The notes under the pieces: model-generated
The model's input: only the letters and a program-made list of their open reading frames with translations
Databases searched by the model: none
Told to the model about the DNA's origin: nothing
Source of the DNA: Rhizoclosmatium globosum
Lineage: Eukaryota > Chytridiomycota > Chytridiomycetes > Chytridiales > Chytriomycetaceae
Assembly: GCA_002104985.1 (NCBI GenBank)
Contig: MCGO01000049.1
Span: forward strand, 1 to 64,000
Direction: 5' to 3'
DNA: 64,000 nucleotides
In this document: positions 10,364 through 62,190 of the stretch, piece after piece
How the letters are laid out: every line of letters begins with the position of its first letter
Position numbering within the stretch: the first letter of the stretch is position 1
Program-made: the position numbers and the translations under genes

Positions 10364-10364
10364 A

Positions 10365-10436
10365 GGACTGATAGCTCAGTGGTAGAGCGTAGGACTGCAA
10401 ATCCCGAGGTCGCGGGATCAACCCCCGCTCGGTCCT
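10365..10436 (+). tRNA. tRNA-Cys (GCA)
   Basis: 72 nt fold as a cloverleaf: acceptor GGACTGA/TCGGTCC, D arm GCTC..GAGC, anticodon GCA at 10397-10399, T arm GCGGG/CCCGC. Both Pol III internal boxes are present (A box TAGCTCAGTGG, B box GGATCAACCCC with A for the usual T at position 54). An A.C mismatch sits in the anticodon stem. A T-run terminator follows directly. A second identical gene lies at 61740-61811 on the other strand, and a third copy is split by an element at 44.6-53.6 kb. Confidence 0.93.
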
Positions 10437-10441
10437 TTTTG
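10437..10441 (+). terminator. Pol III T-run terminator of tRNA-Cys
   Basis: TTTT directly follows the tRNA 3' end. Confidence 0.7.
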
Positions 10442-41463: not shown

Positions 41464-41566
41464 CAGGGTAAAGGTTGTTCAGAAGTGCAACTTCTACAAG
41501 AGTTTTTGTAGCGAATTAGAAATGCGCGGAGTTACAAAACTGTCCTTGTTATAGTGTTTGCTTTGT

Positions 41567-41633
41567 AGACCCAAAAGTCAAATATTCAGTAATGGGCATC
41601 AACACGCCCGCAAGAAAAGGGAGCCTGGAAGGC
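41567..41633 (+). repeat. 67-bp dispersed direct repeat, copy 1
   Basis: It begins AGACCCAAAAGTCAAATATT and is repeated at 41954-42020 with no visible difference over 67 bp. Confidence 0.8.
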
Positions 41634-41717
41634 TCGCTCCTCTCACGGAACGTGTATCATAAACCCACGCCATTCCATTGGGAGTCGAACCCAATGTGAA
41701 CATGAATGGCATAAAAT

Positions 41718-41736
41718 GAGGGTTGCCGCAACCCTC
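41718..41736. other. 9-bp-arm palindrome
   Basis: GAGGGTTGC-C-GCAACCCTC is a perfect short hairpin between the two 67-bp direct repeats. Role unknown. Confidence 0.5.
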
Positions 41737-41902
41737 TTATTAGTTCATTAAATAAAAGAAGATATACCTCAATATTCCTTAAGAGATGTCGGGTTGCGGC
41801 AAGACTCCCAATGGGATGGATGGGTTTTACAAGGGTGGAAGGATGGGGAAGAGGCGGCACTCGGAAATTCTCAACGCTTCGCAGCGTTTTGGGTGAAGAA
41901 AT

Positions 41903-41954
41903 GCCACTTTTCCTTTCTGGCCTTTTGCTCACGAGCTTCACTCTTTCACTTAAA
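41903..41954 (+). repeat. 52-bp direct repeat, copy 1
   Basis: It begins GCCACTTTTCCTTTCTGGCC and is repeated identically at 44046-44097. The two copies frame a decayed block of about 2.1 kb. Confidence 0.8.
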
Positions 41955-42020
41955 GACCCAAAAGTCAAATATTCAGTAATGGGCATCAACACGCCCGCAA
42001 GAAAAGGGAGCCTGGAAGGC
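41954..42020 (+). repeat. 67-bp dispersed direct repeat, copy 2
   Basis: Second copy of the 41567-41633 sequence, directly following the 52-bp repeat. Confidence 0.8.
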
Positions 42021-42242
42021 CTGCTCCTCCAATACTTAATTCGAACTGGCTGTGTGCTTACCATTACTGAGTAGAAAGGGAAAGGAGAGCAGAGGGGGCT
42101 GTAATAACGTTTAAACGCAGACTTTATTTAGTAACTTCAGATTGCCCTGGTGGCAACTGGTAAATCATAACATCAGCTTGCCCATGGTGACAACTGGAAT
42201 CAGTAAGAAACAAAGAAATAGGCATGTGAGATTATCTGCGAC

Positions 42243-44011
42243 CGTTACCCGCGCGACCAGCTCGTCTGTTTCCAAACTCTTCACGGTCGTTGCGGCGGTA
42301 GCTGTCTTCACGCTCGTCACGACGACGGTGATCATAATCGTCCACGACGATAATCATCGCGATCATCACGATCGGTCTGACGCCGGTAGCCAGAACCACG
42401 GGGGTGACTGTTGGAATGACGCGGTCTCAGAAATCCTCGAGCACTGGTACGATAATTGTTCCCCAAAGGCTCAGGGGAAGTGGCATCACGAAGGCGTTGT
42501 GCGACAAGGAACTGAGAGTTGAGGATAGAACCGACTTTGCACATTTCCTCAAGGAGAGGGTTGCGAGACTTGGGTTGGAACAATTGCATGAAATACTGGG
42601 CCATTTGAAGTCCACTCCATTTGGCACTTTGAGGCTTTCTGATGGCAGCATCGAAGGCATTCATGCCCTGCTTCCAGAGTGACATTTTGTCCATGGTCAC
42701 AAGCTGAGAACCGTCTGGAGCAACATGAGCAGCCAGATCCACAGCCTCAACCAGACCTGCCTTTTTGACAGCATCAGCAACTGCATCCTTGACAGACTCT
42801 GGAGAATCAAAGACGTTGTCTCTGACGTGGTCCTCCCCATTGCACTTGTATTCCGCATGAGATGCCACCAGGAGAGCGGCATTAAAGTAGTGGTTCAACT
42901 ATTTTCATAGGAAATTTAGAAAATGCTTTTAAGTGGAGTATGAGGGGAGTAGTAGGTAATCTCTACGCTCAACCCAGTAAGGAATCAATCGGAAAATCAT
43001 CGATTTATTCAGTTGTGCAAACATCCAAAATATTGGGAAAACTTGGGGCATCTGGGCTCTGCTGGACAGAGTTGGGGCCACAACAGCAACAGCTGGTAAC
43101 AAATGGGTGCAGAATAGTAAATTGAGGGGGAAATAGTCAACCCCAACATCAGCATTAGCTGGCAACACTTTTCGTGGAAATAAAAGACAGAATACTGGAC
43201 TGGGGTAGAACACAAGAGAAGGGTCTAGTCATGAGTCCAATGTGACAACTGGGCGCCGCTGGACGGCATTGGAGTCTGTAGACTTGGAGCAAAACCCAGT
43301 TGCTCATCAAGGTTGGGTGCAGCATTGGCAGTCTGTCTCCGGCATGGGTGCAAGGAAGTGACTCACTTCCGATCCATCCATTGATGCAAACTCGTGATAC
43401 CCGCCACTGCTAACCTACAGGATCCACGAATCAAACTGTTCGTTTAGCCTCAGGCCCCAATTCCTTGACCCGAGTTCAGCGGCCGCAGCCTTCGGTTCAT
43501 TCGTGTAGCTCAACTGTGAAAGAAAGTTTACACAAGATATCAGGGGTCAATTACCGAAGGAGATTTAGTAGGGCCTGCTAAATCGAGCCCGATGTCGAAA
43601 TTGGGGTTGGTAGTGGTAACAGCAGGCATTACAGGAGGAACGACAGGTGCGAGTGGGGCTGCTGGAGCTTGGGGAATCGCTGCCGCTGCTGGAAATGGTC
43701 CTACGGGAGGGTGGTTCCCGGGTGACGCTTGGGCTTGTGCAACGAGAGCCAAGAAGGCGTGGGCAGGCATGAATGGGATCCCGGCAATACACACAAATCC
43801 ATAGTGGTTACCTTGAATAGCGTGGGTTGCAACATTGCCCTCAATTTAGCCTCGGATCGCATTCTGTTTGTCTGCAAGCAGTCCGCCGGCTGGAACCAAT
43901 TGCAAACGACCAACGACCATGTCAGTTACATGTTGACCAAGAGCATTGAGAGGTACGTCGTTGATCTTGATGTTGGTGTTGTCGTTTGCGAGGGCGGGGA
44001 CGTAGGCCATG
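42243..44011 (-). pseudogene. decayed multi-exon coding region, family unknown
   Basis: From ATG at 44011 the minus strand reads MAYVPALANDNTNIKINDVP, continues LNALGQHVTDMVV and meets a TAA after 54 codons. The same frame then continues coherently (IEGNVATHAIQGNHYGFVCI) into a Pro/Ala-rich segment ending near 43555. A plausible intron leads to LSYTNEPKAAAAELG. Another open stretch at 42898-42332 reads MNHYFNAALLVASHAEYKCN, then MDKMSLWKQGMNAFDAAIR, and ends in an Arg/Gly/Asp-rich tail. Several stops and frame changes separate the parts. I do not recognise the protein. Composition and setting (between direct repeats) suggest a former mobile-element or virus-like coding unit, but that is a guess. 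Confidence 0.4.
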
Positions 44012-44045
44012 TGTAGTGAACGAGGAAAGATGCGAGGAGCTTCAC

Positions 44046-44097
44046 GCCACTTTTCCTTTCTGGCCTTTTGCTCACGAGCTTCACTCTTTCACTTAAA
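44046..44097 (+). repeat. 52-bp direct repeat, copy 2
   Basis: Identical to 41903-41954; it marks the right edge of the decayed block. Confidence 0.8.
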
Positions 44098-44580
44098 AAA
44101 AATCGAACCCAACTCTCATCTAGGGGTGGACCAGGGGGTCAATGATGCGACAAAATTCCGATTATCATTATTTATTTCTAAATACGTGCAGGACAGGTTT
44201 TAGATGTTTTTTCAAAGATACTTGTCAATCTGCCCCAGTTTCAAAATCCACCCACACCTAGAGGATAATCCCAAAATTTAGTACCTTTTTAACGGTTAAG
44301 TCTCGGAGAATCCTAGGCCCCCAACCCAATTCGTCTGTCATAAACAAAGTCGAGACCGTCGTGAATAGGTCCCCTTCGTGCGAATCCCCCCAGTTTGATA
44401 TTTGTTGGACAGCTGCATATGATCTCATCCCTCGCGCACGCCGTGTCTGCATATTAAATCAAAGAAGTTAGAAACAGCTATCCTAGTAATAGATAAGTTA
44501 AAAGAGTACAATTAAAAGCGTCGAAGTATTTTGGCGAGAATAGCGCCAATTAAAATTACAACACCAACTTTGATCGACAG
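44098..44580. other. spacer, nothing recognised
   Basis: AT-rich sequence between the decayed block and the split tRNA-Cys gene, with no supported gene. The last bases (CGACAG before GGACTG) would be the upstream flank of the original tRNA-Cys gene. Confidence 0.4.
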
Positions 44581-44597
44581 GGACTGATAGCTCAGTG
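44581..44597 (+). tRNA. tRNA-Cys 5' fragment (first 17 nt), left junction of the element
   Basis: GGACTGATAGCTCAGTG equals nucleotides 1-17 of the complete tRNA-Cys genes at 10365 and 61811. It stops abruptly within the A box (TAGCTCAGTGG), and unrelated T-rich DNA follows. The missing remainder is at 53569-53624, on the same strand and in the same orientation. Not a functional gene alone. Confidence 0.85.
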
Positions 44598-44617
44598 TCT
44601 ATTTTTTGTGCTCAAAG
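44598..44617 (+). repeat. left imperfect terminal inverted repeat
   Basis: TCTATTTTTTGTGCTCAAAG pairs with the reverse complement of 53547-53566 (TCTATAGGTTCTGTGCTTTAAAG) at TCTAT, TGTGCT and AAAG, with small gaps. Moderate support only. Confidence 0.5.
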
Positions 44618-44629
44618 AAAAAAAATTGT

Positions 44630-44658
44630 GTGGGCCGAGTCTTGCGACTCAGACCCAC
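44630..44658. other. hairpin near the left end of the element
   Basis: GTGGG-CC-GAGTC-TTGC-GACTC-AGA-CCCAC: two stacked stems. Its core AGTCTTGCGACT differs by one base from AGTCGTGCGACT in the hairpin near the right end. Confidence 0.7.
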
Positions 44659-45027
44659 CACCCAACACACAGCACACGAGCAACAACATATAAACACCAT
44701 CGCAATACAGAAAGTGATAGAGGAAGCGGTGGCGATCACAATCCAACCGGTGGAGAGGACGGCCGAGGGTAGAGAGGGGCGGTGGGTAGTGAGTCACAGC
44801 AGACTGAGGCCGCATGCTCTGGCAGCCAGAGAGCACCGGTTCCAGCTAACGTACTAGACTCAAGACGCAGTTCGAGAGGGGTAGAATGGATGGAGAGGTG
44901 GTGGGAGAGGCGGCAGAGTCGAGGGCGGTGGGAGGGGTGATCACTCACTGTTTCGCAATAGAAAAATGAGAAGACGTGCACCCAAAAAACAATCCTTTAT
45001 GAAACAGGCGAAACAGAATTTATTGTT
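44659..45027. other. noncoding left arm of the element
   Basis: About 370 bp between the hairpin and the helicase stop. It is GA/GT-rich in places (GGTGGGAGAGGCGG near 44900) with no supported gene. Probably the helicase 3' UTR and element end. Confidence 0.4.
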
Positions 45028-46832
45028 TCAGATATAGAGCGTTCTCATAAACGCTGTGACTCTCGTATCGACTGTGACCTTGGTCCGACTGAAGTTAAGA
45101 ACTTGCAACGAGTCCAGAGAGACCGCTCGAGAGATAGCGACATAAACTTGACCAGGAGCGAAAATATTCCGCAAATCGACGCACAGATAAGGGATTGTCA
45201 GCCCCTGACTCTTGTGAATTGTCCTGAAACAAGGTAAGTCGAAATACGGCAATATCATATGAACACGTACATTGAATACGAAAGCATCAAAGGTATCTGG
45301 AACGAAAGAGTTAGAGCCAAAAGGAACACAAATGCAGCCACCTGAACGTAATTGACTTCGGCCTTCGTCGAGGGATTCACATACGTCCACGTTTCCGCTT
45401 TGAGCTCCTTCCTAATCATTTCCGTAGTTGTTTCTCGTTTTACGCAGAAGTCCACGGTAACAGCCTTTTCTGGTAAGTTGACCGAAACAACACGCCCCCG
45501 ACTCCCATTCACAAGATCCTCTGTCAAATTCTTGAGAAGCATCACTTCCGCTCCAATCTTTAAGTTCAAGATGAACGGCGCCATTGCATTTTCGACGAAC
45601 GTTTCTCGGTCCTCGACAGTAGATCCGGAGATTCCAGCAACGAATCCAAACTGCGTGCCATCCAGCCGTTCTAAATTCTCTTGGTTAAACCTCGTAACTT
45701 GTTCGCGCGTCGGAAATCTGGTCAAAAGAAGGATCAGTTGGATCGCTGTTTAAACTATTCTCAACTCACAGCTGAACCGGCTTCATTCCAAACGGTATCT
45801 GAAGAGGGAAGTATTGATTTGATAGAATATTGTTTGTGGCGGGCGTTAGTATGCCGCTTCGAAGTTCGTTCAAAATGGAAATGAGTCGAGTGTCAGTCTG
45901 GCGATGAATCTCTGAGAGCTTAAGAAACGGGATTAGTAATCATTCAGTAAAATATGCAGATATAACTTACAACAATACACGATTCTCGTTTTATTGCATC
46001 CTTCCACGACTGAGTTTCAAACGCAAACTGTGCAACACGGCCAGCAGTCGAGACAGGAGGAAGCTGAGCAAAGTCGCCACACAAAACAATCTAAGGAATG
46101 ACGCTTTAGATGCGATTCACTGCAGGGCATAAGAAACCTGTATCCCGCCAAACGGAGTATTTGACCCTGCGTTACGATCCAGCTTCTTCAATACGCCGTC
46201 CAGCTTTCCAAAGAATTCTCCATCAAGCATCGAGACTGACTCCGAGATTAGTTGAGGAATACACGACGAGAACTGTTGTACTTTCGTCAATAATCAGCAC
46301 TTTCGTCTTTCGCAGCCGCTCTTTAACAGGAGGAAACAACTTGTTGAATAGTTCGTCGACGCTCTCTGTGAATAGTTATTGGTTTATCCTGGCATATCTG
46401 GAAGCAACATACCTTGTGCCAGTCTCAACGCTGCCCATGAGTGAGTTGTCCTACCGCCAATGTTCTGAGCCGCGAGACCTGAGAAAGATGTTAACGCTAT
46501 AGGCCCTTCCAGCGGTAAAACCGAGTTCCTGACCTGTGGAAGCAGTTACGGCAACAGCATGCTGCTCCGGGTATTTAGCCTGACACAATTTGATGACTTG
46601 GCGCAGCGTGTGCGACTTTCCAGTTCCTTATTCCGAAAATGAGTGAGTGCACAAAGAAGCGATGGCGGGAGCCGTACATACCTGCTTTGCCAGTCAAGAA
46701 GACGTTCTTGCCGGCTTCAACAAACTCCAGAACTCGTCGTTGTTCCTTGGTCAGTCCTTGCGAGAATAGATCCACTCGCTGCTTCGCTTCCGGTGATGGT
46801 TGGTTTGGTTTGGCTTTCTTGTTTGGAGGCAT
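45028..46832 (-). CDS. PIF1-family DNA helicase
   Basis: Start MPPNKKAKPNQPSP at 46832, seven or so short exons, about 480-500 residues, stop at 45028. Motifs across splices: motif I FLTGKAG|TGKSHTL; motif Ia ASTG|LAAQNIGGRTTHSWAAL; motif II LIIDE|ISMLDGEFFGKLD after removing a 52-nt GTACAA..GAGTCAG intron; motif III CGDFAQLPPV; and the C-terminal signature TIHKSQGLTI with VYVAISRAVSLDSLQVLNF. All key PIF1 motifs (Walker A/B, Q and R residues) are present, so the enzyme looks active. PIF1 helicases are 5'-3' enzymes that unwind DNA at forks and G-quadruplexes. Here it sits inside the tRNA-inserted element, same strand as the recombinase, and may be a transposition or replication partner. A domesticated or captured host gene is the alternative. 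Confidence 0.85.
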
Positions 46833-47583
46833 GTTTTCGAGAGAGTTTCGTCAACGTTTCAACCACTTTCAACCTTCTGAACCTCATTAGCTCAACAAAA
46901 CCCGCTAAAATAAATATCAGATCTTACTAAACAATACACGATCTTCTTGATGGTGGTATTGTTACGCGTCTGTCGTCATCGCCAGTTACGCTATTCAGTT
47001 TCCGCGCAACCAAACTCGTTCCAGACGTGCAAACACGACGCAATCGCTTCGTAGATCGATTAATAGTAAATACTATGCTGCTTTCGACTTAGGTGAAGTT
47101 TGGTGTGTCCTGATTTTGTCAATCTTTTAATGTTCATCTTGCGTCAACACTTTCAATGTAAATGTACATAGACTTGAGCTTTCATGATCGATGCATATAA
47201 ACCTCCAGAATCAGTAAAGACAACCCGCTCTTTCTATCGCAGGTAGTCATTGATCTGAGTCTTTTGTCGTTGGTGTGCTATTGAGGGTAGAATATCATGG
47301 ATTTGGCTTCAGAATCAAAAAGATGGCCACAGCACACATATTTTGGCGTTCCAACAACACGAATCTGCATAATATACCAGCATCTTATCGCATGCGAAAT
47401 CTTATGAATTTTGCCAGCTTCAGTCAGGAGCTGCAGTTTTTAGGGTTAATAACCCTAAACGAAACCCGAACACATTAGTACTGCTGGAAACACGCAGAGC
47501 GTCAAAAGCAAACATCATTAACAACAAAATATCTTGATTCGACACTTTATTTGACGGAAATCAAGAAGCGACGGAGTATATTT
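46833..47583. other. noncoding internal region of the element
   Basis: About 750 bp upstream of the helicase with no supported gene. It probably includes the helicase promoter. Confidence 0.4.
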
Positions 47584-47880
47584 CATTTAGAAGGAAGTAA
47601 ACATAAATTCAAGTGTCATTACGACACCATAGGTATGAACATAACCTTTTCAAATGAGCATTTAGAAGGAAGTAAACATAAATTCAAGTGTCATTACGAC
47701 ACCATAGGTATGAACATAACCTTTTCAAATGAGCATTTAGAAGGAAGTAAACATAAATTCAAGTGTCATTACGACACCATAGGTATGAACATAACCTTTT
47801 CAAATGAGCATTTAGAAGGAAGTAAACATAAATTCAAGTGTCATTACGACACCATAGGTATGAACATAACCTTTTCAAAT
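47584..47880 (+). repeat. four perfect 75-bp tandem repeats
   Basis: The unit starts CATTTAGAAGGAAGTAAACA; copies begin at 47584, 47659, 47734 and 47809 and show no differences. 75 is a multiple of 3, so the plus strand stays open across all copies and would encode a 25-residue unit (HLEGSKHKFKCHYDTIGMNI then TFSNE) four times from ATG at 47551. Coding or a cis-acting array (iterons) are both possible; there is no independent evidence of translation. Confidence 0.9.
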
Positions 47881-48312
47881 TGACGAGAAGGAGAGGGGAG
47901 AAGAAAAGGAGTAGGTCGGGATGCTTGGTTCAGTTTTACGTTGTTATCAGCTGTTCAGCTGTCAAAGTTATATTGCGACGACGCGTTACTGTCACGGTCA
48001 GTCTGGCACAGCGATGAACGGAGTAAGTGACTGAATGCCATTGAATCGCGTTGCGAGAGCCGAAGCGCCGCCCAATGATGTCGTGCTGAGAGGCACTACA
48101 AAGGGCATCATCGGTCTCGCAACCCAGCCACAGTACCAAACACAACGCAAATATCCGAGGACGAATGTAAGCATTCGTCGCTGCGGCATTAGATGGGACG
48201 GGAGCTCATTCGGGATGACTGCGCGTTTTTGAATGAAAAATTGAATGGAATGTTTTCGAGCGAAGAATAATTGAAGAACAACAAAACCGTTTATTCGAAA
48301 AACCGTAACTAT
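47881..48312. other. noncoding region downstream of the recombinase gene
   Basis: About 430 bp, no supported gene; probably the 3' UTR and spacer of the recombinase gene. Confidence 0.4.
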
Positions 48313-51300
48313 TCAAGGCGCTTCCTTACACTTTCGGCAGAAGGCCGGAACACCCTTGTCCGTCATACCACAACAAGTTGAGTGAACCCGCGTTTCGCAT
48401 CCAACACCATCACACACGTCGGTAGTATATGCACCACAGTAAACGCAATTCTCGCTTGTCGCCTCAGCCGAAGCTGCTTCCTGATCCACACCAGTGTCAT
48501 CCGCATCGCCGCCAGCAGTCGCCACTTCAGTTTCCGCAGGAGTCACCTTCTGCTTCTTGCTTCGCGGCTTCTTAACAGTTGCAGTATCCTTGGGAGCGCG
48601 AATTGGAAGAGCAGTTGGGAACGAGGTCTTCTCGGCCATCGCCGAAATCGTGAATCCTTTTTTCTTGTGAAATTCGGTCTCAGTGCGAATCGTAGCAAAA
48701 GCAGAGGCCAAAAGAGCAGAACGCTCTTCATCGGAAAGAGCCATAATCTGAGTAAGAGTCAACTGGCATCTGTCGAGAATGAACCACAAGACACGGTTGT
48801 AATTCATGAACTGCTTCTGCTGGCCACCCTGCGCCCACTTTGTATGATGACGTTGAACAAGAGTGTTCAAAGAGAACCCAGGACCCGCTGCAATCGAAAA
48901 TGCCTGCAAGAACAATTATAAGTACCATCATCAACAGTATGCGAACAAAACAAACCTCCTCAAGAGAAACTTCGCTAATGGCAGGAAACTTGACTTCGGG
49001 CATGTTCATAGACCAAGGGTCAGACCGAGAGAACTGCTTTCGGTAAGTCGCAACTAACCGACCATTGTCACTTGACACAGTAAAAGGACCAGTCGCAAGA
49101 CGCGCAGTAGAGCCAAACTCAGGAATCACCAATCCAGTGGTAGGAATTTCTGGAGCAGGAGCAAGTTCCGAGCGAGGACGAGGTTCAGGTGGATGGAAAA
49201 TTGGCTGGTCAGAGTTGTCACCATGCTGACGGGTGACCCGTTCAAGAAGAAGCTTCAGATAGGCAGTGTTCTCTTTCACTTCATCGTGCAAGACTTGCAG
49301 CTGAGAAGTAAATGCGGCCTGAATTGTAGCGGGCAATCTGTGAATTTCCTCCAAAGTATCATCTGGAAGATTTCCAAAGCGACCGCGTAATTCGGCAAAC
49401 TGTTCGTCCGAAAGTACAACTTCCATTCGACCACGGCTTCCACTCCCATCCAGCGCGTTCAGATTTGGACGTTCCATCTTGCTGCAAGCCAACCGCCATT
49501 CAGCATACTTGACCTCCTCCTTATACACAGCCTCGTAAAATTCCTTCCACTCCGTAGTGTCAAAGATGTTGTTCTTTCGCTTTTCGCAGTAACCTCCTCC
49601 TTTTATGGCAGCAACTGGGGAAAAGTGGAGTCATTTTATTTTAGAACATGACAAGAAAAAACATACCAGTCTCCGGTGTGATCGCTTCAGAAACAAGTGG
49701 ATCTGTGGCAATATGATAGAACAACGAAGCTAATCCATAGATAAACTCCTCGCGTGTTGCGGTCAAGGTATTCCCCATCACAGGCAAGCTTACTTTCCCA
49801 TTCTTGCAGTGGTGTTCTGCGCGCTTCGCAAGGTCCTCAAGAGTCTCGCCTTCTTCCAAAGGCTGATCCATTCCAATCCACTCATTCACATCATCCACCT
49901 CATTAATCACATCGTCCGACAAGAAGATGGGATGATCGGGGTCCTTCACTGCTTCCTCAAACTCAACCCAGTGAGGAAAGAAATATGACTGGATAAATGG
50001 ACTTGGTGGAGGGGCATTGAACCGCGGCGCCTTGAACCTTCCCTCATGATTCCCGTTCGGAAACATACCGGTGTTGTATTGGACAACCTCTCGCGGAAAC
50101 TCCTTCAAGTAGACAATACTGAAAGACTCCCCGCGTTTGACATTATCGCCTGTCAACCAACCAATGCGCTCAATGGCAGCGGCAGGGACGTTACCACGTT
50201 CCATCTTCACGGGCTGGGCTTTACGAGGAATGTGAGTACTCTTTCCGTCAATCTTGACTCCCAAAGCGTTGTGCATGGTGTCCATCATGGTGTGGTGAGT
50301 GGTCGATCCCATTGGCTCCGTATACGAACTGGCATGAAAGAGCTTGATTTCCTTGACAACATTGTAGCCCTTCATCAACAAATCCGCTTTTCCTGTTATC
50401 TTCTGGACATGAAGCTCCATATACTCCTTGAGACCAAACGTAAACTTGAAATCAAAGAGCGGGTTCCAATGAGGGCAGACAATGATGTAGCGTTTGTCAC
50501 TTTTACCGCGTTCAGCAAGAAGAGACTGGAAGAAAGACTTAGTGAACGTAAGAACAAGTGACTTTTACATACCGAGAGTTTGGATCCATCGACAAGAATC
50601 TTGGTACAGGGACACTTTTCGCAAGCATAGATACCTTCTGGAGGCCGAATTTCATAGTCCTCGGACAACAGTTGAATAATGTTAAGACCCCGCAACTCCG
50701 AACTACGCCCACAAGTAACGTCATTCAGGTTCAGCTGACAAAGTTCACGGGCTCCAGTTGGAATAGAACCACCAGGAGCGTACATCAAACGACTCAAGCA
50801 GTGCAGTCGAAACCCTTTCTCAACCTCCGCGGTGATGTGAGCTTCAACGTTACGCTCGTAGTTATTGTGGACATCCGGGTCTTCTTCAACCTTCTTGGAA
50901 ATAGACGCAACTGTTGCACTTTGAATCCTCTTCTTGTGGTCGTCATGGTCAGCTTTGTCGTTGCATCCAAGAGACTTCAACTGCTCGTCGTCGCAAAGAG
51001 GAGCGCACAGCCCAGACATTCGCAACATATGCGTGTGAAATTGCTCAAGAGAGGCCTATTTGGCAGATTTAGTCCAACGTATCAAAGAAATAGAAAAAGG
51101 ATAGAAAAACTTACATATTTGCTACCAATCTTGCCATTGGGATCAAACACACCCTGCTGATTTCGCATTGGTTGGAGAGCAAACCCATCCAGTCCCCACG
51201 TGATGTATCGGCCAGAAAAGAAGTACTTGTAATTGTCCATCGTGTCGCGAAGCTGGGGTGTTTGAATGTACAGCTTCTCAATATGTCTCCCAACAAGAGT

Positions 51301-53093
51301 CTGTAGAGAATGTGATTAGAGGTGACTTCGATAGAATTTAACCCACCATATAATCCTCCAATGTGCGAATGTGTGGACCATAGTTCTTGTCACAGCCACG
51401 CCCCTTCCCAACTCCAGGATTCATGATGTTTCCAATAACAGTTGTGCAGTTATTCTTCAGTTTTTCGCGCTGTTTGATATTCATATGGACGTACTTCACA
51501 GCCAGCTGACGGACAAGTTCTTCTGCACACTTATAGCCTCGAGAGAAGATAATGTGAGCGTACAGATACTTGCGATCAGGTTGCCATTGTCCAACCACTG
51601 AGATTGTGATCAAATTAGTCTGAGATACCAAAGCCGAAGCAACACTTACAATTCTGATCAACAATCGCTTTCAACCTCTTCGCAACCAATCCAGCCTCGT
51701 ATCGTTTCAGATTGCTCGTAAATCCAGTCATTATCTCGAATTTAATGCAATCAGGTAACTCGTAGCCTTTTGCTCGGCGTTCTTCTGGTGTCAGCGGGAA
51801 GAAGTCAGCGCGCTCCGCGGCTGTTGGTTTCCATTTAGACTGGTTGGCAGCGTCGGCAGCGTCGGCAGGAGCTTGACTGTCATCTTCAGCATCAGATTCA
51901 GAATCAAACTGGTCACCAAAGGTAGGGAGATCTGGTCGGCGGCCACGTTTAGCAGCACCAGTGGCTTTCTTGGCCCGGCGGCGTTCACGAGTAGCATCAG
52001 GAGCAGGAGCATCGGAGTCAGAATCTGAGAGCATTTCAGGCATGGAGTCGTCATCGTCTCTGCCTTGAGTGATAACGTTGGCAGCCAGACCGAGTGCAGA
52101 GTTTCTGGCACGGGTGTGAGCGGAAGCGCCGGCACGGAGCGGGGACTGCGGAGCGCGGGCGGAAGAGGTGGAAGCAGCACGAGAGGACTGGGCGGCAAGA
52201 GAGGTTGAACGTCGTGACGGAGTTGGCTTGGAAGCACGAGCAGTCGCCTTGGAACGCGCGGCATTGACAGCAGCGATGAAGTCCGTCGGTGCTGCGTCGC
52301 TTGGGCGTGGGTTGTACACGATTGGTGCAGGCGGGCCGGCGGGGCAGGCGTGGCACTTGCCGTTCGAAGCAGCGCACGTGTCGTGTGTCCAGTGCACGTT
52401 GTTGTCGTCGGAATTCTTGCAGAGGACAAGGTTTCCCGTCGATGTTTGACACGTGGAACACTGTGCGTTGCGTTGTTGTTGAGTACTGGTTGAAAAGTGA
52501 AGAAGAGGGGCACAACACTTACAACTCGCTTCCAATCGCCTCCAGTGTACTTCCAGCCATTCTTGACGGATCCTTCGGTGAAAACCCAGCCGTTACGCTC
52601 GAGGTACTGCTGGTTGATCTTGACCAGTTGCTTGCCGCCAGGCCCAAGAACGTAAGGCGCCATGCGAGGGTCGAGCGTTTCTTCTGGAATAAGACTCCCG
52701 TCAGCTGCGTAGGTACCGGCTGTGTTCATCATTTCTGGTGTCGTTGGTGGAGGAGTTGGTGGTGGTTGTGGTAGGTGGTGGTGGTGGTGAGTGAGTAGTG
52801 TATGAGGAAATAATATAACACGCACCTTTCAATAACTCAAGACTGTAGTCTTTCTCCAAAGCATTCAATGCATCCAAAGTGTCTTTGTCAAACATCTCGC
52901 TCTCGGTAAAGTAATCGGTACTCTCATAGAGCGAATTATCGGTTTCATAAGCTGCCTCGGAATCGCTTCCGGCGATCACTGCGCGTGAAGCGAACTGCTG
53001 GGCTCTGAAGAGAATAGCTTCACGTAGCTTGTGGTTGATTTCGTGGCCTCTGATGGGTTGGGTTGGCTGGTTTGGGGTAGCACTGCCAGACAT
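48313..53093 (-). CDS. Crypton-type tyrosine recombinase (NDC10_II core, GCR1_C, two zinc fingers)
   Basis: Start MSGSATPNQPTQ at 53093; about nine exons with consistent phases (52826, then ..CCAG; 52521, then ..GCACAG; and so on), about 1,350 residues, no stops. Order: acidic N-terminus; PHD-like zinc cluster (CSTC, HWTHDTC, CHAC); disordered Ser/Arg region; recombinase core; GCR1_C-like segment (GPGFSLNTLVQRHHTKWAQ); basic linker; C-terminal zinc finger (CVYCGAYTTDVCDG, CRKC). Catalytic set: Arg in GRSSELRGL, Lys in RGKSDKR, HIPR, GW, and Tyr in VYLKEFPRE. THIPRK, RIGW and YLKEFPRE match the NDC10/Crypton signature, with the typical PRFNAPPP and FFPHWVEFE following. It should cut and rejoin DNA in the nucleus to move the element. 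Both zinc fingers are unusual additions, possibly for chromatin targeting. Confidence 0.87.
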
Positions 53094-53184
53094 TCGAATC
53101 TATCCAAATAAACGCAGATTAGAACAAAGTATTATATAGATATTATGTTTGTATAGAGGGATGGCGCGTTTTACGTTGTTGAAA
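53094..53184 (-). promoter_or_regulatory. recombinase upstream region
   Basis: About 90 bp between the recombinase start and the large hairpin; presumably the promoter and 5' UTR. Confidence 0.4.
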
Positions 53185-53296
53185 GTTGCGACTTTTTTTC
53201 GGGGGTGATAGGCTCACGAGCATCCGGGGACAAAAGTCGTGCGACTTTTTTGCACCGGTGCTATGCATCCTATCACCCGCGAAAAAAAATCGCAAC
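53185..53296. other. large nested hairpin near the right end of the element
   Basis: Arms of 28 bp (53185-53212 and 53269-53296) are inverted copies with few mismatches. Inside lies a perfect palindrome AAAAGTCG-TG-CGACTTTT (53232-53249). The motif TGCGACT occurs in the outer left arm and in the inner palindrome, and a variant TTGCGAT lies inverted in the right arm. The same core occurs near the left end at 44638-44649. Candidate recombinase binding, origin or regulatory structure for the neighbouring recombinase gene. Confidence 0.75.
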
Positions 53297-53546
53297 TCAA
53301 AATAAGCGCCTACGCGCCAAACTCGCTGCGCCCATACTAAATCGAGTGTGTAGAAAACGAATCCGTGGTCGGTTTGTTGAAAATAAAGTGGGTAGTAAGG
53401 GTCAATACTTGGTGTGGATCACCACTCTCGGACACACCATAACAACCCCCCAACAGCCCCCTATCACCTCAAACATCATTCAATGTATTAATATAGTGTA
53501 TATATGATGTTCCTTATGTGTTGTGTATTTATTTTTTTTAAGACTT
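53297..53546. other. noncoding right arm of the element
   Basis: No supported gene; AT-rich towards the end (ATTTATTTTTTTTAAG). Confidence 0.4.
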
Positions 53547-53566
53547 TAAAGCACAGAACCTATAGA
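53547..53566 (-). repeat. right imperfect terminal inverted repeat
   Basis: Reverse complement starts TCTATAGGTTCTGTGCTTTA and pairs imperfectly with 44598-44617. Two extra G (53567-53568) precede the resumption of the tRNA sequence. Confidence 0.5.
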
Positions 53567-53568
53567 GG

Positions 53569-53624
53569 GGTAGAGCGTAGGACTGCAAATCCCGAGGTCG
53601 CGGGATCAACCCCCGCTCGGTCCT
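53569..53624 (+). tRNA. tRNA-Cys 3' part (nt 17-72), right junction of the element
   Basis: GGTAGAGCGTAGG onward is identical to tRNA-Cys from nucleotide 17 to the end, with the B box and anticodon intact. The first 16 nt are missing and are replaced by unrelated sequence (CAGAACCTATAGAG). With 44581-44597 it reconstitutes one complete gene. As it stands it lacks the acceptor 5' strand and the A box. Confidence 0.88.
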
Positions 53625-61513: not shown

Positions 61514-61739
61514 TCAAGAGAGCAGAAGGGGGGGAGAGGGGGGAAAAAAGCTTCAGTTATTTGTTCAATTTTCTTTAGAGGGTAGAATGGAGAACACCAT
61601 TAAATCCAGCTAACATTACTTCCTTCGTGTTTGAAACCTAGAACGCGATGAGGTAAGGAAAGGCCAACATACCAACAGCGATTGAACCCAAACTCCACAA
61701 AACTCCCTGCACCATCTTTTCATCTACTCAGAATCCAAA

Positions 61740-61811
61740 AGGACCGAGCGGGGGTTGATCCCGCGACCTCGGGATTTGCAGTCCTACGCTCTACCACTGA
61801 GCTATCAGTCC
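61740..61811 (-). tRNA. tRNA-Cys (GCA)
   Basis: Reverse complement is identical to 10365-10436: same cloverleaf, anticodon GCA, A54 in the T loop. TTTT follows on the minus strand (AAAA at 61737-61740). Apparently intact. Confidence 0.93.
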
Positions 61812-62190
61812 TTGGCACGGCAAAAGTGCTACGCTGAATACCAAGCCCTAATATAAACTTGTATCAGCGAAAAACATCCTCTCAGTGTGATCCAATTATA
61901 TCACAAAAATCCGAACATCTTCGACATATTTTTGTAACTTCCACTTTACATGAACTCTGCAGATTCTATTATTATTAGGGCCACGAAAAAGGATAACTTA
62001 AACCAAAATGGTTTGCAAATGAAAACACAAAGAAAAGCAATCAAAACAATCAAAGTCACCAAAAACGAATAATTTTTTTATCGAACCATTCACACAAACT
62101 CTCTTTGTGTGCACCTGAGTCCTGAACGAGACAAAGAAAGACTGTAGATCGCTTTGTGGCCTCTATAAAAAATACATACAAAAACTTTGA
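61812..62190. promoter_or_regulatory. spacer, nothing recognised
   Basis: About 380 bp of AT-rich DNA between the divergent tRNA-Cys and the methyltransferase gene; no gene supported. A CTATAAAA box lies at 62163-62170. Confidence 0.4.

Follow-up and report, generated by a model that had tools for sequence, protein, structure and literature searches.

A probable tyrosine-recombinase transposon that splits tRNA genes in the chytrid Rhizoclosmatium globosum

Background

In bacteria and archaea, integrative elements attach by means of tyrosine recombinases to tRNA stem-loops, and usually bring along the missing end so that a working tRNA gene remains. Tyrosine recombinases are also encoded by the DIRS and Ngaro retrotransposons, which are known in fungi. 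We describe here an element of 8,972 bp that splits a tRNA-Cys(GCA) gene in a stretch of 64,000 nucleotides from the chytrid Rhizoclosmatium globosum (contig MCGO01000049.1, positions 1 to 64,000), referred to below as the window. It is very probably an autonomous chytrid DNA transposon that moves by a tyrosine recombinase and for which the D-loop of tRNA genes is the attachment site. Unlike the bacterial and archaeal elements it leaves the tRNA gene split, its host is a fungus and its genes have predicted spliceosomal introns, and unlike DIRS and Ngaro it has no reverse transcriptase that could be recognised in the open reading frames (ORFs) and proteins scanned. The scan for reverse transcriptase and DDE domains covered ten of the minus-strand ORFs and the two spliced proteins and gave no match.

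Cryptons are among the closest known systems. The element may resemble them in its putative tyrosine recombinase gene, with no reverse transcriptase or DDE gene recognised in the set scanned, in its short direct repeats at the ends, and in that relatives of its large protein are distantly similar to NDC10_II. Cbf2/Ndc10 is reported to be CryptonF-derived, CryptonF elements carry a GCR1_C domain and most are reported with 6-bp repeats, with 5-6 bp given for CryptonF and CryptonS, and the words helicase, tRNA and chytrid are absent from the main text of that paper (PMC3212892). The element differs in lying in tRNA genes, in carrying a PIF1 helicase and in its direct repeats of 1 bp (Cys) or 3-4 bp (Glu). 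Its 1,439-amino-acid protein has no match to GCR1_C at expectation values (E) up to 10, and as it has neither that domain nor 6-bp repeats we do not file it as CryptonF.

Three other groups are relevant. Dada transposons also insert within tRNA genes, where the A box and the anticodon are the two hot regions, and have a DDD/E transposase and target-site duplications (PMC8869645). The same two regions of tRNA genes are used here, but with a putative tyrosine recombinase and no target-site duplication. Starships of Pezizomycotina have a DUF3435 captain and are 15-700 kb long, some families preferring 5S rDNA (PMC12134995). Our element is likewise fungal with a tyrosine-recombinase gene at one end, but it is 9 kb long with no cargo recognised, it is in a different phylum, and DUF3435 found no match in the ten minus-strand ORFs or the 1,439-amino-acid protein. 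The tRNA-targeting elements of dictyostelids are retrotransposons (PMC5006619).

The interrupted tRNA-Cys gene and its empty site

The window is contig C365 in our numbering, and the genome searched comprises 56.9 Mb in 420 contigs. The features at the site of insertion are as follows.

44581..44597, plus strand: 5' part (17 nt) of the split tRNA-Cys(GCA) gene, up to G18 of the D-loop; the intact tRNA-Cys copies and the empty allele on C33 have the identical sequence
44598..53569, no strand assigned: whole mobile element, 8,972 bp, with ends set from the four copies together with the empty sites (C33, C57)
44598..44615, plus strand: left terminus, TCTATTTTTTGTGCTCAA, the same in 4/4 copies
53550..53569, plus strand: right terminus, AGCACAGAACCTATAGAGGG, the same in 4/4 copies
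53570..53624, plus strand: 3' 55 nt of the interrupted tRNA-Cys, beginning at G19, from comparison with the intact copies and C33

The two tRNA parts are in the same orientation and when joined give the exact 72-nt gene, split between G18 and G19. Two intact tRNA-Cys genes are present in the window, at 10364-10437 (plus) and 61739-61812 (minus). An earlier note on this DNA had proposed that two such parts rebuild the intact gene, and in this it was right, but it started the 3' part at 53569, which we correct to 53570. The difference arises from a run of Gs that put the start one base early, and a joined gene that includes that G has one G too many.

When the genome was searched with the left junction, C33 showed the left flank as far as the junction, whereas C1, C415 and C42 showed the left end of the element. 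The search with the right junction gave 31 rows, being the window itself, the element end on 3 other contigs, and 27 other tRNA-Cys genes or parts including that on C33. The tRNA-Cys of C33 is uninterrupted, and the joined flanks of the window align there with no base missing or extra at the junction. Up to 44597 C33 is 98.3% identical to the window (420 bp), and from the right element end onward 98.5% (4,960 bp); near the insertion it represents the homologous haplotype. The earlier note had proposed looking for an empty-site strain, and an empty allele is present on this contig of the same genome assembly. A separate difference between the two haplotypes is a 2.6-kb stretch at 41542-44177 of the window, with six ORFs of 92-188 amino acids, which is missing from C33 and is 400 bp from the tRNA-Cys gene.

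Other copies of the element

There are 3 other full copies in the genome, on C1, C415 and C42, of 8,734, 8,871 and 8,870 bp respectively and 98.3-98.4% identical to the window copy. Each of them splits a tRNA-Glu(UUC) gene after the second G of the D-loop (G19). The search for further copies had been put forward in the earlier note as a way to check its proposal, and the three found end at the same junctions and have tRNA genes as their flanks. The end sequences in all four copies are TCTATTTTTTGTGCTC on the left and CCTATAGAGGG on the right. TCTAT of the left terminus is complementary to ATAGA of the right, and if the ends were joined in a circle they would read ATAGA-GGG-TCTAT, in which GGG is the centre of an inverted repeat. 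Across the junctions the Cys copy has G as its direct repeat, one Glu copy has GGT and two Glu copies have GGTC.

Any two copies are 98.3-98.5% identical, apart from C415 and C42, which have 0 base differences over 8,870 aligned bases and one 1-bp length difference. These two share no flank beyond 52 bp at the tRNA, and with base-identical elements in unrelated flanks we conclude that one element moved very recently. C1 and C42 have left flanks that are 97-98% alike and right flanks that are 90% alike, and on that similarity are probably alleles. For C415, a 400-base query made by joining the flanks gave one full-length match, 89% identical, at C57:536941-537339 where there is an intact tRNA-Glu. 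C57 provides a similar empty site for this Glu copy, and could be either an allele or a paralogue. The tRNA stretch alone of this query matches 75/75 bases on C381, C268 and C54.

The chance of such a pattern can be estimated by assuming 500-2000 tRNA genes with a target of 3 bp in each, for which one random insertion into the target has p up to 1.05e-4, and three hits (with C1 and C42 counted as one event) about 1e-12. Four copies with the same ends in tRNA genes, together with the empty sites, lead us to conclude that the element is mobile, that it targets tRNA genes and that it is no assembly error. A chance match of the two tRNA-Cys parts or an assembly chimera, either of which would have undone the original proposal, is ruled out by the exact empty allele on C33 and the same ends in three further copies. 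More generally, tRNA genes are repeated, some of them in tandem clusters in this genome, and could attract errors of repair or assembly, so that homologous or template-switch insertions might fall in them by chance or contigs be misjoined. It is exceedingly improbable that this is the explanation, given the same ends in four copies with three flank contexts, the exact empty site on C33 and the similar one on C57, and the presence of the large gene, at 99% identity, on a contig from a second isolate, JEL0117.

Genes of the element

Both genes are on the minus strand and run inward from the right end.

48313..53093, minus strand: large gene, 9 exons, 1,439 amino acids, putative tyrosine recombinase; 8/8 introns are GT..AG and the gene is open in 4/4 copies
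Exons of the large gene: 52826-53093, 52523-52734, 51650-52460, 51347-51597, 51115-51300, 50573-51055, 49667-50525, 48956-49614, 48313-48903
45029..46832, minus strand: PIF1-type helicase gene, 9 exons, 467 amino acids; Pfam PIF1 at E 5.4e-40 on the spliced protein
47584..47880, no strand assigned: four 75-bp tandem repeats (100% matches) between the two genes; repeat length varies between copies

The start of the large gene lies 476 bp in from the right end, in agreement with the recombinase-type gene reading inward from one end that had been described earlier. It is under purifying selection: three comparisons gave ratios of nonsynonymous to synonymous change (dN/dS, as uncorrected proportions) of 0.149, 0.135 and 0.104. 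Two partial proteins in the databases are similar to it. P0001, from Rhizoclosmatium sp. JEL0117, has 99% identity across 86% of the region searched, and its gene model matches most of the large-gene exons but reads through the first intron. P0002, from Obelidium mucronatum, has 45% identity across 97% of that region. Rhizoclosmatium and Obelidium are both Chytriomycetaceae, in the Chytridiomycota.

The case for a tyrosine recombinase comes from comparison of the large protein with its relatives. In a first alignment, which set the window protein beside P0002 and two diverged relatives that the same genome encodes, the residues R, K, HxxR, W and Y are invariant. An alignment of six proteins, the window protein and five diverged relatives (18-46% identity to the first), has 13 invariant columns that include R179, K221, H321, R324, W346 and Y362. 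We take R, K, HxxR, W and Y to be the catalytic set of the tyrosine recombinases, R-K-HxxR-(H/W)-Y, in the same order. A profile of family 1 (the four copies described above belong to it) and three relatives (A2), compared with one of family E and its relatives (A4), gave a probability of 99.6% with E 1.3e-23. Two of the relatives are named Ndc10 domain-containing in UniRef.

These conserved residues also bear on the proposal that we are dealing with a Dada-like DDE transposon targeting tRNA genes, in which the large protein would be an accessory and an unrecognised DDE transposase would act. The Dada insertion sites, which are the surroundings of the anticodon and nt 8-13 in the A box (PMC8869645), are close to those here. 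However, the target-site duplications reported there contrast with a direct repeat of 1-4 bp and no duplication against the Cys empty site in the present case, the scan described above gave no DDE match, and R, K, HxxR, W and Y are among the conserved residues. We consider a Dada-like origin quite improbable.

Tyrosine recombinases can also be encoded by polinton-like viruses and virophages (PMC12220804), and the element might then be an integrated polinton-like virus or provirus that carries such a recombinase. This is very improbable, as the two genes recognised in the 9 kb (in the same set of ORFs and spliced proteins) include neither a capsid nor a polymerase gene, and as that study found no tRNA genes near the integration sites of cryptophyte polinton-like viruses (PMC12220804).

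The PIF1 helicase gene is open in the window copy and in C1, and is frameshifted in C415 and C42 by a common 4-bp deletion. The helicase is probably an accessory factor: an element may dispense with it, or use in trans the helicase made by another copy. An alignment gap of 225 columns in C1 falls at the 75-bp tandem repeats, where the gaps differ among the copies.

Related loci and their tRNA targets

Loci encoding related proteins were found by protein homology alone, 7 at first and then 8 more, making 15. An interrupted tRNA gene adjoins 11 of the 15, which comprise four families (with Cys/Glu, Leu, Leu and Ala targets) and one locus at a tRNA-Asn.

Family 1 (C365, C1, C415:94k, C42): D-loop of tRNA-Cys or tRNA-Glu
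Family 2 (C113, C415:84k): 5' part of tRNA-Leu at the left end
Family D (C301:154k, C101:72.8k): tRNA-Leu
Family E (C76, C301:163.5k): right end AGCTTTAAGGG/GTAGAGCG in tRNA-Ala(AGC), the stroke marking the junction

In the case of family 2, the 3' part on C113 is of AAG type and starts in the anticodon loop, with about 6 nt of the intact gene unaccounted for; the right end of the copy at C415:84k was not found. In family D the element on C301 extends by its junctions over approximately 147685-157815 (about 10.1 kb) inside a tRNA-Leu(CAA), with the left junction GCGGTC/GAAAGACCTGCC, the right junction GGCAGGG/TCTAAGG and a direct repeat GGTC as in two of the Glu copies. The right end on C101 is in a tRNA-Leu of AAG type. 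The element at C395:161.5k has an end like that of family E (95% over 246 bp), which meets the tRNA-Asn. Families 1, D and E have the right-end Gs in common, and these meet G18-G19-U20. The choice of sites in tRNA genes that had been suggested from the window is supported and is broader than Cys, extending within family 1 to tRNA-Glu and in related families to tRNA-Leu and tRNA-Ala.

There are several points that weigh against our reading. The window protein has no match to a recombinase in Pfam at E up to 10, where only weak PHD-like zinc-finger matches were found, near both ends. The relatives have weak NDC10_II matches (1/4, 3/5 and 3/6 proteins in three scans, the best being 4.4e-4 in the 1/4 scan), every one of them below the curated cut-off. 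Two structure models, both of low confidence with mean pLDDT (predicted local distance difference test) of 31.3 and 49.6, had no significant Foldseek match. The identification as a tyrosine recombinase made in the earlier note is supported by the invariant residues and the profile comparison with relatives, and finds no backing in Pfam for the window protein itself.

Among the insertions, the split points of the Cys gene (G/G) and the Glu genes (GG/) are one base apart, so that the rule for the crossover is not fixed, and the helicase is frameshifted in exactly the base-identical, recently moved pair on C415 and C42. Both family D protein matches hold two in-frame stops, due either to an intron or to decay. 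For C101 and C301:163.5k, gene and junction come from separate pieces 2-6 kb apart that are assigned by position to one element, while the junction at C395:161.5k is near nt 8 of the tRNA-Asn and so outside the D-loop. Four of the 15 loci had no interrupted tRNA in the stretches read, which were 20 kb for C408 (with one intact tRNA-His about 8.5 kb away), flanks of 1.85 and 1.95 kb for the two on C46, and 1.2 kb for C395:163.5k. Finally the 11 loci are in part not independent, as C1 and C42 look allelic and the ends of C76 and C301:163.5k are 98% identical.

With these points taken into account, the best reading is that these are tyrosine-recombinase DNA transposons of a new Crypton-like group, for which tRNA stem-loops are the attachment sites. 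The earlier note had thought of a Crypton-type element with site choice in tRNA genes, perhaps a new family, and the copies, junctions and empty allele support this.

Proposed mechanism and significance

We suggest that the recombinase encoded by the large gene would excise the element as a circle, and that the joint ATAGA-GGG-TCTAT would then recombine with a target tRNA gene at G18-G19-U20, the exchange taking place within the short core GG/GGT(C). Both the catalysis and the circular intermediate are inferred. The D-stem, as a natural inverted repeat, could provide the binding arms: the D-arm is an inverted repeat around G18-G19, and this would suit a recombinase that binds as a pair flanking a short crossover. 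Since the loss of one among many tRNA copies is a small cost to the host, tRNA genes would also be a safe harbour.

Integrases that are tethered usually do not insert with base precision at a common core. In a variant of the reading that we favour, it is tethering to an RNA polymerase III factor, and not recognition of D-arm DNA by the recombinase, that sets the target. The A box is common to the D-loop targets, and the Cys, Glu, Leu and Ala genes share little else, which speaks for this variant. We nevertheless regard it as unlikely, as the insertion is base-precise in coding sequence with a GG core in common and as family 2 uses the anticodon region instead.

It is fairly likely that a whole eukaryotic lineage of tyrosine-recombinase transposons, so far seen in Chytriomycetaceae only, took up tRNA attachment sites independently of the bacterial integrative elements, using the D-arm and the anticodon arm as two natural inverted repeats, with switches of isotype and arm. 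Docking in tRNA genes by tyrosine recombinases is the standard route for bacterial and archaeal islands. The literature matches listed included no eukaryotic tRNA-targeting tyrosine-recombinase transposon; the coverage excluded bioRxiv preprints and most subscription papers, so that an earlier description is possible. If our reading is true, the choice of this safe harbour would be a clean example of convergence, and the presence in one genome of several families, at homologous positions of different tRNAs, would be a natural experiment on change of recombinase target. The group is also a possible source of site-specific recombinases for eukaryotic sites that are multicopy and conserved in sequence.

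Other observations

Some further insertions and tRNA arrangements were seen in the genome. At C396:168968-170497 there is a 1.45-kb insert with family D ends in the D-loop of a tRNA-Leu, which is probably a non-autonomous derivative. The anticodon stem-loop of tRNA-Leu is interrupted at C168:229627-233928 (about 4.2 kb), C28:37733-50504 (about 12.7 kb) and C204:471-6273 (about 5.7 kb), the inserts on C28 and C204 having a similar left end. None of these three had a recombinase match in the genome-wide protein homology searches, and they could be another type of element. Half or shortened tRNA-Leu genes, with the other half not located or with internal loss, are at C117:36925, C359:316042, C1:493540 and C383:230487. 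Beside the recombinase gene on C408, at 41650-46683, are ORFs that look DIRS-like (reverse transcriptase and tyrosine recombinase) as judged by eye from the translations. At C418:38401-40250, tRNA genes for Ala, Leu, Lys, Val and Gly form tandem clusters that are about 1.6 kb long, and similar repeats of the start of tRNA-Leu are found on C301 and C52.

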